DNA from: Anaeromyxobacter dehalogenans 2CP-C
GTDB taxonomy: Bacteria; Myxococcota; Myxococcia; Myxococcales; Anaeromyxobacteraceae
Length of the DNA stretch: 64,000 nucleotides
Direction: 5' to 3'
NCBI RefSeq assembly: GCF_000013385.1
Contig: NC_007760.1
Coordinates: 4,066,001-4,130,000 of the forward strand
This document shows, piece after piece, positions 22,986 to 26,611 of this stretch. The translations under genes were made by a program, and so were the position numbers. Every line of letters starts with the position of its first letter. Within the stretch, counting starts at the first letter, position 1. Under the pieces are notes generated by a model. It ran no database searches and was not told the origin of the DNA. It was given only the letters and a program-made list of their open reading frames with translations.

Positions 22986-22990
22986 CAAGA

Positions 22991-23065
22991 TGGAGCGGGA
23001 AAAGGGATTTGAACCCTCGACCCTCGCCTTGGCAAGGCGATGCTCTACCACTGAGCTATTCCCGC
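22991..23065 (-). tRNA. tRNA-Gly (anticodon GCC)
   Basis: The 75-nt gene reads on the minus strand GCGGGAATAGCTCAGTGGTA, with D-loop, an anticodon stem TCGCC/GGCGA around loop TTGCCAA (anticodon GCC), a T-arm ending GGTTCAAATCC, and acceptor strand CCCGC plus discriminator T and encoded CCA. All four stems pair. Its 3' end faces the integrase gene, so it is the probable attachment site of the island. The gene itself is intact. The matching partial copy (the other att site) is not in the window. Confidence 0.97.
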
Positions 23066-23088
23066 AAGAAGGCTCGCGAAGGTGGAGG

Positions 23089-23118
23089 TTTATAGAGGGA
23101 CCGCCCGAGGGGTGTCAA
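23089..23118 (-). promoter_or_regulatory. Sigma-70-type promoter of tRNA-Gly
   Basis: On the minus strand, TTGACA (23,118-23,113) and TATAAA (23,094-23,089) are separated by 18 bp and lie about 24 bp before the tRNA 5' end. These near-consensus boxes stand out in very GC-rich DNA. Confidence 0.8.
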
Positions 23119-23148
23119 GCGGGTTTCAGCAGGCTGCGAACACACCGT

Positions 23149-23175
23149 CACCGCGGCCCTCCGAGGGCCGCGGTG
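23149..23175. repeat. Perfect inverted repeat between tRNA and heptosyltransferase
   Basis: CACCGCGGCCCT, a 3-nt loop CCG, then AGGGCCGCGGTG form a perfect 12-bp stem. It lies between the divergent tRNA promoter and the heptosyltransferase start, 16 bp before that GTG. No T tract follows on either strand, so an operator or mRNA hairpin is more likely than a terminator. Confidence 0.5.
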
Positions 23176-23190
23176 TATCATCCGCGCCCC

Positions 23191-24399
23191 GTGTCGGACC
23201 CGGTCATCGCCCCCTCGCCCTCCCCCGTCCCGCCTCCCCCGCCGGCTCCGCCGCGCGGGTTCTTCGCGCGCCTCCGCAAGCGCCGCGAGGACGCGCGGCG
23301 GCAGGCGCAGGTGGGCGGCGGACGGCAGCGCGGGCCGGTGGCGGACCTCTTTCGTTCGGCGGGCCGGGCCCTGGCGCTGACGCTCGCGAACCTGGTCCTG
23401 CCCCGACCGCGGGCGCCGATGCCGGCGCCGGAGACCATCCGCCGCCTGCTCGTCATCCGCGTGGACGAGCGGGTGGGCAACCAGCTCCTCACCACCCCGC
23501 TCCTCCGCGCGCTGAAGCTGGGCCTGCCGGACGCCGAGCTGCACCTGCTCGCGCCGAAGCAGGGGCTCCTCGTCGCCTCGCCGCACGTGGACCGGTTCCA
23601 CCTCTGGCAGAAGCGCGACGCGTTCCGGGCGCCGCTGCGTCAGCTGGGGCAGCTGCGTGCGCTCCGGCGCGAGCGCTTCGACCTGGTCATCGAGGCGGGG
23701 CACTGGTCGGCCTGGTCCCTCACCTCCTCCATCCTCGCCCGCCTGCTGGGCGGCCGGCGCGCCAGCATCGGGCACGACCGCGGCGATGCGGCGCGCTTCC
23801 TCTCCCACCCGGTGCCGCACGATCCGGCGAGCGTGGCGGAGGTCCCGGCGAAGCTGGAGCTGCTGGCGCCGCTGGGGCTGCCGGCGCGCGGCCTGGAGCT
23901 GGAGACGGGGCTGGGGCGCGACCTCGCCGCCGCCGACGCGGCGCTGGCGGCGGCGGGCGTGTCGGGCCCGTTCGCGCTGCTGAACCCGGGCGCGCGCCTG
24001 GCGGACCGGCGCTGGCCGGCGGAGTCCTACGCGGCGGTGGCGCGGGGGCTCTCCGAGCGCGGCCTCCGCGTGCTGGTGGTCTGGGGCCCCGGCGAGGAGG
24101 GGCTGGCGGCGGCCATCGTGGAGGGCTCGGGCGCGCGGCTGGCGCCGCCGACCGACCTCGACAGGCTCGCGGGCCTGATGCGGCGGGCGCGCCTGGTGGT
24201 CTCGAACAACAGCGGGCCGATGCACCTCGCGGTCGCGGTGGGCGCGCCGACGGTGGGCGTGTTCTTCCGCGGCGACTCGGTGCGCTGGGGGCACGGGATC
24301 CCGGCGTTCGCGGCGGCGGAGGTGCGGGGCGACGCGGAGGCGCCGGCGGTGCTGGCGGCGTGCGACCGGGTGCTGTCGATCGGCGCTGGTCGCGCCTGA
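23191..24399 (+). CDS. Glycosyltransferase family 9 (ADP-heptose:LPS heptosyltransferase-like)
   Basis: The 402-aa protein belongs to GT9, which adds heptose to lipid A core in lipopolysaccharide. A Pro-rich, basic N-terminus precedes the first Rossmann domain (IRRLLVIRVDERVGNQLLTT, then PLLRALKLGLPDAELHLLAP). The second domain holds ALLNPGARLADRRWPAESYA and the donor-binding block RRARLVVSNNSGPMHLAVAV, then GAPTVGVFF. The family's D/TGPMH motif appears as NSGPMH. The start is uncertain: GTG 23191 has no clear ribosome site, but upstream sequence belongs to the divergent tRNA. No other LPS genes are adjacent. Confidence 0.85.
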   Translation: MSDPVIAPSPSPVPPPPPAPPRGFFARLRKRREDARRQAQVGGGRQRGPVADLFRSAGRALALTLANLVLPRPRAPMPAPETIRRLLVIRVDERVGNQLLTTPLLRALKLGLPDAELHLLAPKQGLLVASPHVDRFHLWQKRDAFRAPLRQLGQLRALRRERFDLVIEAGHWSAWSLTSSILARLLGGRRASIGHDRGDAARFLSHPVPHDPASVAEVPAKLELLAPLGLPARGLELETGLGRDLAAADAALAAAGVSGPFALLNPGARLADRRWPAESYAAVARGLSERGLRVLVVWGPGEEGLAAAIVEGSGARLAPPTDLDRLAGLMRRARLVVSNNSGPMHLAVAVGAPTVGVFFRGDSVRWGHGIPAFAAAEVRGDAEAPAVLAACDRVLSIGAGRA

Positions 24400-24400
24400 C

Positions 24401-24583
24401 GTCCCTCGAGTCCGGTCCCTCGACTCCGGTCCCTCGACTCCGGTCGCGCCTGACGGCGCGACCTACGCTCGGGATGAGCGGGTTACGCTCAGGATGAGCG
24501 GCCGACGCTCGGGATGAGCGGGCTACGCTCGGGATGAGCGAGGCTGACGTTCGGGATGAGCGGGCAATGCTCGGGATGAGCGG
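24401..24583. repeat. Locally amplified REP-like element
   Basis: Three parts are visible. First, three 14-bp direct repeats of GTCCCTCGACTCCG (24,401-24,442, one with a single change). Second, a perfect 8-bp hairpin GTCGCGCC-TGAC-GGCGCGAC (24,443-24,462). Third, six imperfect copies of a roughly 20-bp unit CTACGCTCGGGATGAGCGGG (24,463-24,583). Read on the other strand, the two repeat types equal the two flanks of the single-copy REP-like element at 24,611-24,661. The array lies between convergent genes. Confidence 0.8.
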
Positions 24584-24610
24584 GGGGTGCACGCGGGAGC
24601 GAACCAGGTG

Positions 24611-24661
24611 GCCCGCTCACCCTGAGCGTAGCGACCGCCGCGCGGTCGCGGAGTCGAAGGG
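24611..24661. repeat. REP-like palindromic element, single copy
   Basis: The left flank CCCGCTCACCCTGAGCGTAG is followed by a perfect hairpin (GCGACCGC-CGC-GCGGTCGC, 24,631-24,649) and the right flank GGAGTCGAAGGG. It lies in inverted orientation to the amplified element just left of it, so the two form a BIME-like pair. It abuts the pgsA stop codon and may also act as its terminator. Confidence 0.75.
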
Positions 24662-24662
24662 C

Positions 24663-25313
24663 CTACCCGCGCGACGTGCGGCGGTTGGGGCGGACGTCCT
24701 CGGCGGCCTGCGCCTCGCCCTCGCGGCGGTACACGGCGCGGATGAAGTTCGCGAAGTAGCTCACCGCGGACCACACCGAGAAGAACAGCGAGATGTACAC
24801 GAGCCAGGTGCCGACCCGGTTCGCGTCGAGGTCGAACGAGAAGAAGATCGCGTCGATCGGGTAGGTGTAGTGCAGCAGCAGGAAGGTGATGCCGGCCACC
24901 TGGAACGCGGTCTTGTGCTTCCCCTCCTGCCCGGCGGCGATGACGATGCCCTCGCTCATGGCGATGGTGCGCAGGCCGGTGACGATGAACTCGCGCGCGA
25001 GCACCACGATGCACACCCACGCGGCCACGCGGCCGAGGTGCACGAGCATCACGAGCGCCGCCATGACGATGAGCTTGTCGGCGAGCGGGTCGAGGAACTT
25101 CCCGATGACCGTGACGAGGTTCTTGCGGCGCGCCACCCAGCCGTCGAGGAAGTCGGTGGCGCCGGTCACCGCGTACAGCACCGCGGCGATGAAGCTGTCC
25201 ACCCGCGACTCGTAGAACGTGAACCACAGGAACACGGGGATGAGCGCGATCCGCGTGGCGGTGATCGCGTTCGGGAGGTTGAGCGCCTCCTGCCGCAGCG
25301 AGCGCGCGCTCAC
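24663..25313 (-). CDS. pgsA: CDP-diacylglycerol--glycerol-3-phosphate 3-phosphatidyltransferase
   Basis: This 216-aa membrane enzyme makes phosphatidylglycerol phosphate from CDP-diacylglycerol and glycerol 3-phosphate. The CDP-alcohol phosphotransferase motif D-G-x2-A-R-x8-G-x3-D-x3-D is visible as ATDFLDGWVARRKN followed by GKFLDPLADKLIVM. About five membrane helices follow the usual pattern. The start is GTG 25313, which overlaps the stop of the upstream TPR/AIM24 gene in a GTGA, so translation is coupled. A polar tail (REGEAQAAEDVRPNRR) follows the last helix. Confidence 0.93.
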   Translation of the reverse strand: MSARSLRQEALNLPNAITATRIALIPVFLWFTFYESRVDSFIAAVLYAVTGATDFLDGWVARRKNLVTVIGKFLDPLADKLIVMAALVMLVHLGRVAAWVCIVVLAREFIVTGLRTIAMSEGIVIAAGQEGKHKTAFQVAGITFLLLHYTYPIDAIFFSFDLDANRVGTWLVYISLFFSVWSAVSYFANFIRAVYRREGEAQAAEDVRPNRRTSRG

Positions 25314-26611
25314 GGCGCGCCTTCCCGGGCGGCGGCGTCGGGATCGGCGAGGACGCGCCCCTCGCCGGAGAGCTCCACCACCGGCGTGCCGGCGCCCGCG
25401 CCGGCGTCGGCGCCTTCCTCGGCGAGCGCGACGAGCCGCGGCGTGAGCGCCCCGGTCCACCCGACCAGCGCGGCGATGGGCAGCCGCACCGGCGCCGACG
25501 GCGAGACCTCCAGCGCGAGCGGCGCGCCGGCGGTGACGAGCAGCATGCACCCGCGGCCGCGCAGGTGGACCAGGCTCAGCTCGGCGCCGCTCGTGGACGG
25601 CACGCGGCCGTTCTCGAACGCGAGCCCGTCCTCGAACCCGAACACGACCTCCTCGTGGAGGTAGGCGGCCTCGCCGTCCAGCTCGAGGGCGGTGAAGCGG
25701 CGGCCGGAGGTCGCGTGGAGCAGCGCCCCCTCGCCGGAGGCGCGGTGCATCCGGGTGGCGCCCTCGCCGAACGGCCGCTCGGTGGCGCGGCCGCGGAAGC
25801 GCATCAGCTCGCCGCCGAGCGTCACCTCGCCGCGGACCGCGAACAGGCCGTCGAGCCGGACCCGCACCGTCCCGCGCACCGTGACGGTGAGGACCGCGTC
25901 ACGGACCGTGAACGGCGCGACCGGGGAGGGCGCGGCGGGCACGAGGCGGGCGTCGGCCCAGGCGGCCAGGGTGGGCACGCCGGCGGCGGCCGCGTCGGGC
26001 TCGGGCGCGGGCGGCGGCACGACGCGCAGCACCGGCACGCTGCCGGGGACGGGCGTGACGTACGGCTCGGGCGCGGGCGGCTCGGGGGCGGCGCGCGGCT
26101 CCTCGGGCGCCGCGGGCGGGGGCGAGACCTTCCAGCCGCTCGCGACCAGCTCGTCGCAGCGGGCCACCATGTGGTCGCTGCCGGCCTTCCGGAACCACTC
26201 GCGCGCGGCCGCGGGGTCGCCCGACTCGAGCAGCGCGAGCCCGAGGTAGCCCATGGCCTTGCGGTGGTCGGGGTTGAGGTCGAGCGCGATCTCGAGCTGC
26301 CGCCGCGCCTCCTCGTGGTGCTTCGCCTTCAGGAACGCGAGCCCGAGGTTCACCCGCGCGGCGGGCTCCACCGGGTTCTCGTCCACCAGCCGCTGCCACG
26401 CGATGGCGGCGTCGTCGAACTGGCCCTGCCGGTAGCAGGCCTGCCCGAGCAGCGCGAGCACCTTCGCGTCCTTGGGGCCGAGCTCCAGCGCGCGCTCCAG
26501 CGCGGCGCGAGCCCGGTCGGCGTCACCCTGCGCGAGCAGCTCGGTGCCGCGCGCCAGGTGGAAGGCGAGCTCGTCGTCGAGGCCGTCGCCGCCGTCCGCG
26601 CGCCGGGCCAC
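25310..26611 (-). CDS. TPR protein with AIM24-like domain
   Basis: The 433-aa protein has three to four TPR units in residues 15-150 (HLARGTELLAQGDADRARAA, PVEPAARVNLGLAFLKAKHH, RKAMGYLGLALLESGDPAAA). A Pro/Ala-rich linker (160-225) leads to a C-terminal beta-rich domain like AIM24: VRLDGLFAVRGEVTLGGELM, HRASGEGALLHATSGRRFTA, HLRGRGCMLLVTAGAPLALE. AIM24 folds occur in bacterial proteins of unclear role. It is cytoplasmic by prediction. It is coupled to pgsA downstream and starts 3 bp after the lytic transglycosylase stop, so the three genes are an operon. Confidence 0.8.
   Translation of the reverse strand: MARRADGGDGLDDELAFHLARGTELLAQGDADRARAALERALELGPKDAKVLALLGQACYRQGQFDDAAIAWQRLVDENPVEPAARVNLGLAFLKAKHHEEARRQLEIALDLNPDHRKAMGYLGLALLESGDPAAAREWFRKAGSDHMVARCDELVASGWKVSPPPAAPEEPRAAPEPPAPEPYVTPVPGSVPVLRVVPPPAPEPDAAAAGVPTLAAWADARLVPAAPSPVAPFTVRDAVLTVTVRGTVRVRLDGLFAVRGEVTLGGELMRFRGRATERPFGEGATRMHRASGEGALLHATSGRRFTALELDGEAAYLHEEVVFGFEDGLAFENGRVPSTSGAELSLVHLRGRGCMLLVTAGAPLALEVSPSAPVRLPIAALVGWTGALTPRLVALAEEGADAGAGAGTPVVELSGEGRVLADPDAAAREGAP

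Follow-up and report, generated by a model that had tools for sequence, protein, structure and literature searches.

The DNA analysed here (the window) is a stretch of 64,000 nucleotides from the single-contig genome (5,013,479 bp) of Anaeromyxobacter dehalogenans 2CP-C. Two of its genes converge upon a short repeat region. Upstream lies a gene for a glycosyltransferase of family 9 (heptosyltransferase-like; positions 22990..24399, plus strand; PF01075, E 7e-33) and its convergent neighbour is a CDP-alcohol phosphatidyltransferase gene (24663..25550, minus strand; PF01066, E 3.5e-41). On the plus strand, positions 24401-24582 hold three left-flank (L) units, one hairpin and six right-flank (R) units in succession. 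The L unit, GTCCCTCGACTCCG, is 14 bp long and is repeated in tandem with a period of 14 at 24401-24414, 24415-24428 and 24429-24442. The central hairpin, GGTCGCGCC-TGAC-GGCGCGACC, is present in one copy on the same strand (24442-24463), with a 9-bp stem and the loop TGAC; when read on the minus strand it has GTAG at its 5' foot. The R unit, CGCTCGGGATGAGCG, also on the plus strand, starts at 24466, 24486, 24506, 24526, 24548 and 24568 and spans 24466-24582. It has the form CGCTC-GGGA-TGAGCG and, with spacers of 5-7 nt, makes up a 20-bp repeat. As modelled, each of these R units can fold into a small hairpin with a loop complementary to the TCCC of the L unit.

The repeats are not a product of chance. 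With at most one mismatch the R motif occurs 23 times in the window, compared with a mean of 5.0 and a largest value of 12 in 100 shuffles. TRF gave scores of 83 and 177 at the locus, and the repeat region as single-stranded DNA had a folding z of -5.5 relative to shuffles. Beyond the R array, at 24614-24661 on the minus strand, there is one copy of a complete element of the AGGG/CCCT class; it starts immediately downstream of the stop codon that ends the phosphatidyltransferase-like gene. Its class (R loop AGGGT, L CCCT) differs from that of the amplified element (R loop GGGAT, L TCCC). The window pair is BIME/REPIN-like: between two convergent genes stand a GGGA-class element and an AGGG-class one, oppositely oriented. 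The initial annotation had described half-element arrays around one hairpin together with a complete opposite element, and its coordinates and copy numbers were confirmed. It counted three right and six left units, which follows the strand of the complete element; on the plus strand the 14-bp unit lies on the left and the 20-bp unit on the right.

The locus was compared with its orthologues in Anaeromyxobacter sp. PSR-1 (G006, a draft assembly) and in genome G001, which we take to be strain 2CP-1. In 2CP-C an exact 14-nt copy (GGTCGCGCCTGACG) of the left arm and loop of the hairpin, belonging to repeat family D4 (27 nt at 81% at this locus, copies spaced 54 nt), lies at 24388..24401 on the plus strand and covers the 3' end and the stop codon of the glycosyltransferase gene. 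This copy was absent from the PSR-1 and 2CP-1 orthologues and is therefore specific to 2CP-C among the three strains compared. The last codons and the stop of the glycosyltransferase gene (24375-24401) sit inside the strain-specific copy of the L unit and hairpin arm, and the C-terminal residues of the protein vary among the three strains.

The element belongs to a REP-like family

In general form the element consists of NNNN-TCGACTCCG, a hairpin with a GTAG foot, and CGCTC-N'N'N'N'-TGAGCG. The pattern TCGACTCCG-N8..34-CGCTC-NNNN-TGAGC matched 102 times in 2CP-C, 46 times in 2CP-1 and 69 times in PSR-1, while the reversed control pattern had no match in these three genomes; elements were gathered by pattern match, so that degenerate copies are under-counted. 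The spread in 2CP-C is uneven, as about half of the 101 matches listed lie at 4.0-5.0 Mb and very few at 0.9-2.1 Mb.

The four bases before TCGACTC complement the four bases between CGCTC and TGAGC. In 2CP-C these L/R combinations form the classes CCCT/AGGG, TCCC/GGGA, CCCC/GGGG and TGCC/GGCA. The L 4-mer was complementary to the R 4-mer in 84 of 92 elements of this genome, compared with a mean of 33.5 and a maximum of 51 after shuffling of L and R, a control that leaves shared ancestry within classes in place. This complementarity across classes implies that both flanks are parts of one imperfect, REP-like palindrome. In an alternative fold, which is the predicted minimum, the right flank would pair with itself and the bases complementary to L would be exposed in its loop.

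Of the 185 elements from the three genomes, 182 have GTAG at the foot of the hairpin. Among elements with a stem of at least six pairs, 108 distinct central parts and 35 distinct arms were found, and the palindrome is kept by compensatory change. The element is also short, extragenic and present in high copy number. It lay between convergent genes in 59 of 87 cases, between divergent genes in one and inside a gene in one, counts that are approximate because the rough GC3-based gene caller missed the phosphatidyltransferase gene of the window. Inverted pairs of the AGGG and GGGA classes are frequent (e.g. 87779+/87834-, 2841845+/2841897- and 4947550+/4947604-), and there are many singlets too. 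To judge from its position between converging genes, the element is probably transcribed and acts as a structure at 3' ends, as is thought for REPs.

By its sequence tag and its architecture the family is REP-like and of the GTAG type; dependence on a REP-associated tyrosine transposase (RAYT) is not part of this assignment. The REP-like nature proposed in the initial annotation is thus borne out by about 100 copies, extragenic placement, the GTAG tag and L:R complementarity. In Rfam the window element had no match above chance, and in a plasmid collection it was the coding flank alone that matched, weakly.

Both flanks are amplified around single hairpins

The numbers of flank units were counted at the 185 complete elements of the three genomes, allowing a tandem L period of 12-18 and an R spacing of at most 37. 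At least three L units were present in 8 elements, at least three R units in 9 and both in 6, a co-occurrence far above expectation (Fisher p 4e-8, kinship among elements ignored). When orthologues are counted once, five independent loci have at least three L and at least three R units around a single hairpin. These are the window (3 L, 6 R), 0.857 Mb (5, 7), 4.215 Mb (3, 4), 2.742 Mb (3, 3) and contig C301 of PSR-1 (7, 11). The separate expansion of each flank about a hairpin that stayed single, as it had been read from the window, recurs at these five loci in three genomes. The unrelated MAG Bin_57_9 likewise has single hairpins with a duplicated L on one side and a duplicated R on the other.

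At the C301 locus the unit numbers of PSR-1 (7, 11) contrast with (1, 1) in both orthologues, the flanks being about 95% identical. Therefore, both flanks grew in one lineage while the hairpin remained single. Comparison of repeat counts among strains, which the initial annotation had suggested, revealed further change: the number of L units differs in 11 and that of R units in 12 of 72 reciprocal orthologous element pairs. At the window locus R is six in all three strains and L is 3, 3 and 1. Most elements have a single L and a single R, and the arrays are lineage-specific and vary in number. As to whether flank units also occur as tandem repeats in their own right, a genome-wide search for paired R units in the three genomes yielded only matches that adjoin a complete hairpin element; L arrays were counted only beside hairpins.

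Whole-unit expansion, held to be the norm for REP elements in the initial annotation, does occur in this family (locus L019, 48-bp units), but half-unit expansion recurs too and is therefore one mode among several. Locus L192 (2CP-C, 4.699 Mb) has five copies of a mixed 46-bp unit of R and inverted L, and locus L174 (3.962 Mb) has three copies of a 48-bp unit of L, hairpin and inverted R.

The central hairpin was identical in 15 of the 72 orthologous pairs, differed only in the loop in 23 and differed in the arms in 34; 14 pairs were of different class, some of which may be mis-paired neighbours. The hairpin turns over much faster than the flanks: at most orthologous sites the loop is changed or the arms are swapped to another stem type, in neighbouring DNA that is about 95% identical.

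Origin of the arrays

The arrays arose in place. The period of the L units varies by locus (13, 14, 15 and 17), and the R spacers differ between loci but are alike within the arrays of C301, 4.215 Mb and 2.742 Mb. Unit linkers are locus-specific, and some contain fragments of the hairpin foot. At five loci the first 5-10 nt of the extra R units come from the local right arm. The extra L units at 4.46 Mb have 5 nt (GCGAG) of the local left arm as their end, and CCTTCG is common to the loop region and L. Several two-copy R arrays have no hairpin-arm fragment. The arm fragments, the local linkers and the left-arm and loop copy in 2CP-C resemble the marks to be expected from slippage or template switching beside a hairpin.

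Every R array found lies beside a hairpin and the units have locus-specific linkers, which favours a stalled hairpin as the site of slippage or template switching. We consider it likely that the half-unit arrays arose by replication slippage at the stalled hairpin, which was itself preserved as a single copy. During replication the GC-rich hairpin would fold on the single-stranded template, and a polymerase coming from either side would pause at the hairpin foot or a few bases inside it. The nascent 3' end could then unpair and re-anneal one flank unit back via short homology, after which the flank would be copied again, giving an extra unit. Copying proceeds on both strands, towards L on one and towards R on the other, so that both flanks could expand at one locus; the hairpin is proposed to stay single because it has not yet been traversed. 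The stalling, slippage and re-annealing steps we infer. Slippage was one of two explanations offered in the initial annotation, and the locus-specific units and linkers formed in situ, the foot fragments, the microhomology and the change in copy number between strains fit it well. The two-copy R arrays without arm fragments count against it, as does element orientation: relative to an assumed replication direction, the two-sided cases showed no significant bias (4/5, compared with about half of the background; Fisher's test with three assumed terminus positions).

The window array itself has features that lead to a second explanation, in which the extra R hairpins and the loop-pairing L strands are kept by selection as a multi-hairpin 3' end, a terminator or a protein-binding RNA or single-stranded DNA. 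Between strains the spacers of this array are about 50% identical, whereas the units reach 93-94% and the adjacent gene about 95%. Among the 18 R units of the three strains 9 of 270 positions are off consensus (about 97% conserved), a value inflated by the recognition of R units through motif similarity, although even so the spacers have diverged much further than the flanks. With spacers so different between strains, simple recent slippage fails to explain the window array. The conserved R units amid diverged spacers hint at selection on the small right-flank hairpins; either such selection or a repair process that maintains identity at paired bases could account for the difference between units and spacers. 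The retention of six R copies in all three strains while L varies, and the 59 of 87 elements between convergent genes with one between divergent genes, also speak for selection. However, the motif-based recognition weakens the argument from unit conservation, most elements have one L and one R, the arrays are variable and no intrinsic terminator with a U-tract is predicted at the locus. Moreover, retention leaves the origin of the arrays unexplained and is compatible with slippage. Selection as the explanation of the arrays is judged rather unlikely. We regard as unlikely the broader proposal that two-sided half-unit expansion is a general mode of evolution in a cross-phylum family and that the expanded R hairpins and L strands are a selected multi-hairpin gene-end structure and not debris.

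The other explanation in the initial annotation was a REP-associated transposase. A RAYT, an enzyme of the HUH type, would cut the element ends or the hairpin and rejoin the flanks to give half-unit arrays. GTAG is a recognition tag of RAYTs (PMC8266576) and is found at nearly every hairpin foot (182/185). A search for RAYT-type genes did reveal two HUH proteins in 2CP-C (225-codon open frames, genes at 542 and 1193 kb; NCBIfam REP_Tyr_transpos, E 5e-15 and 1.5e-13, below the cut-off). However, neither gene adjoins an element: every retrieved Y1_Tnp match is more than 1.5 kb from the nearest element, and a RAYT gene flanked by the repeat was not encountered among these matches. Co-distribution of RAYT and repeat was not found across 24 genomes of the family, as close RAYT relatives (>50% identity) are present in ten genomes that have no matching element, whereas G005, a genome of 5,277,990 bp, has 23 elements and only a relative of 28% identity. 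The units, besides, contain locus-specific linkers and not a fixed mobile sequence. An enzymatic origin of this kind appears very doubtful, although a distant RAYT may be at work.

An artefact of assembly or sequencing is highly improbable; tandem repeats may be prone to mis-assembly, and PSR-1 is a draft, but the window lies in a single-contig genome, and three independent assemblies each show the amplified locus, with spacers that differ. CsrA sites have GGA in a hairpin loop, which the R loops GGGAUG or AGGAUG in 5-bp hairpins resemble, but a CsrB-like sponge that titrates CsrA is ruled out for practical purposes by the absence of CsrA (PF02599) from the 2CP-C genome, in which controls were detected, and by the other classes, with loops AGGG, GGGG and GGCA in an otherwise identical architecture; it would need an unrecognised CsrA in this genome.

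Relation to known repeats and occurrence in other phyla

The half-unit expansion is unusually clear here, yet the REP-like repeat itself is of a known kind. The GTAG-tagged REPs surveyed previously (PMC3733652, 2013) are likewise short high-copy extragenic palindromes with a GTAG foot, compensatory stem variants, inverted pairs and a preference for the 3' ends of convergent genes. Additional features of the Anaeromyxobacter family are an outer L:R stem of 4 bp and the conserved tail CGCTC/TGAGCG. In that survey reiterated singletons or dimers with flanking DNA were described, whereas separate half-unit arrays are absent from its description; Anaeromyxobacter and Myxococcota are absent from its main text. 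REPINs (PMC3116915, 2011) also consist of REP pairs in opposite orientation and can be clustered in tandem, but their clusters repeat the whole REPIN with its flanks, while the Anaeromyxobacter halves expand separately. The intrastrand triplex repeats of E. coli (TM_ECO; PMC4666352, 2015) likewise involve a G/C-rich hairpin repeat that is associated with changes in the sequence next to it, and replication slippage has been proposed as their cause. The repeats themselves differ in sequence, and the reported variation comprises deletions and small intergenic changes, not two-sided arrays.

In these natural arrays, copying errors to either side of a hairpin have been preserved, and relatives keep the unamplified state. 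Such arrays are a ready system for testing hairpin-driven tandem duplication in bacteria. They also indicate that one half of a REP-like repeat can be remodelled apart from the other, a change that counting schemes based on whole units miss.

The architecture was found in Myxococcota, Xanthomonadales, Dadabacteria, Planctomycetota, Binatia and other MAGs. Further complementary classes occur in other phyla (TCCT/AGGA, CACT/AGTG, CGCT/AGCG and CCTC/GAGG). Among these groups the GTAG foot is present in some phyla and MAGs and lacking in others, so that, unlike the GTAG-tagged REPs, some phyla share the architecture without the tag. On the basis of the L:R complementarity classes, a REP-like family can be delimited that extends over several phyla; no description of it was found in the literature searched (element strings; Anaeromyxobacter with REP). 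In G005 a strand bias of 18 forward to 5 reverse elements was observed, and many of the stems are longer.
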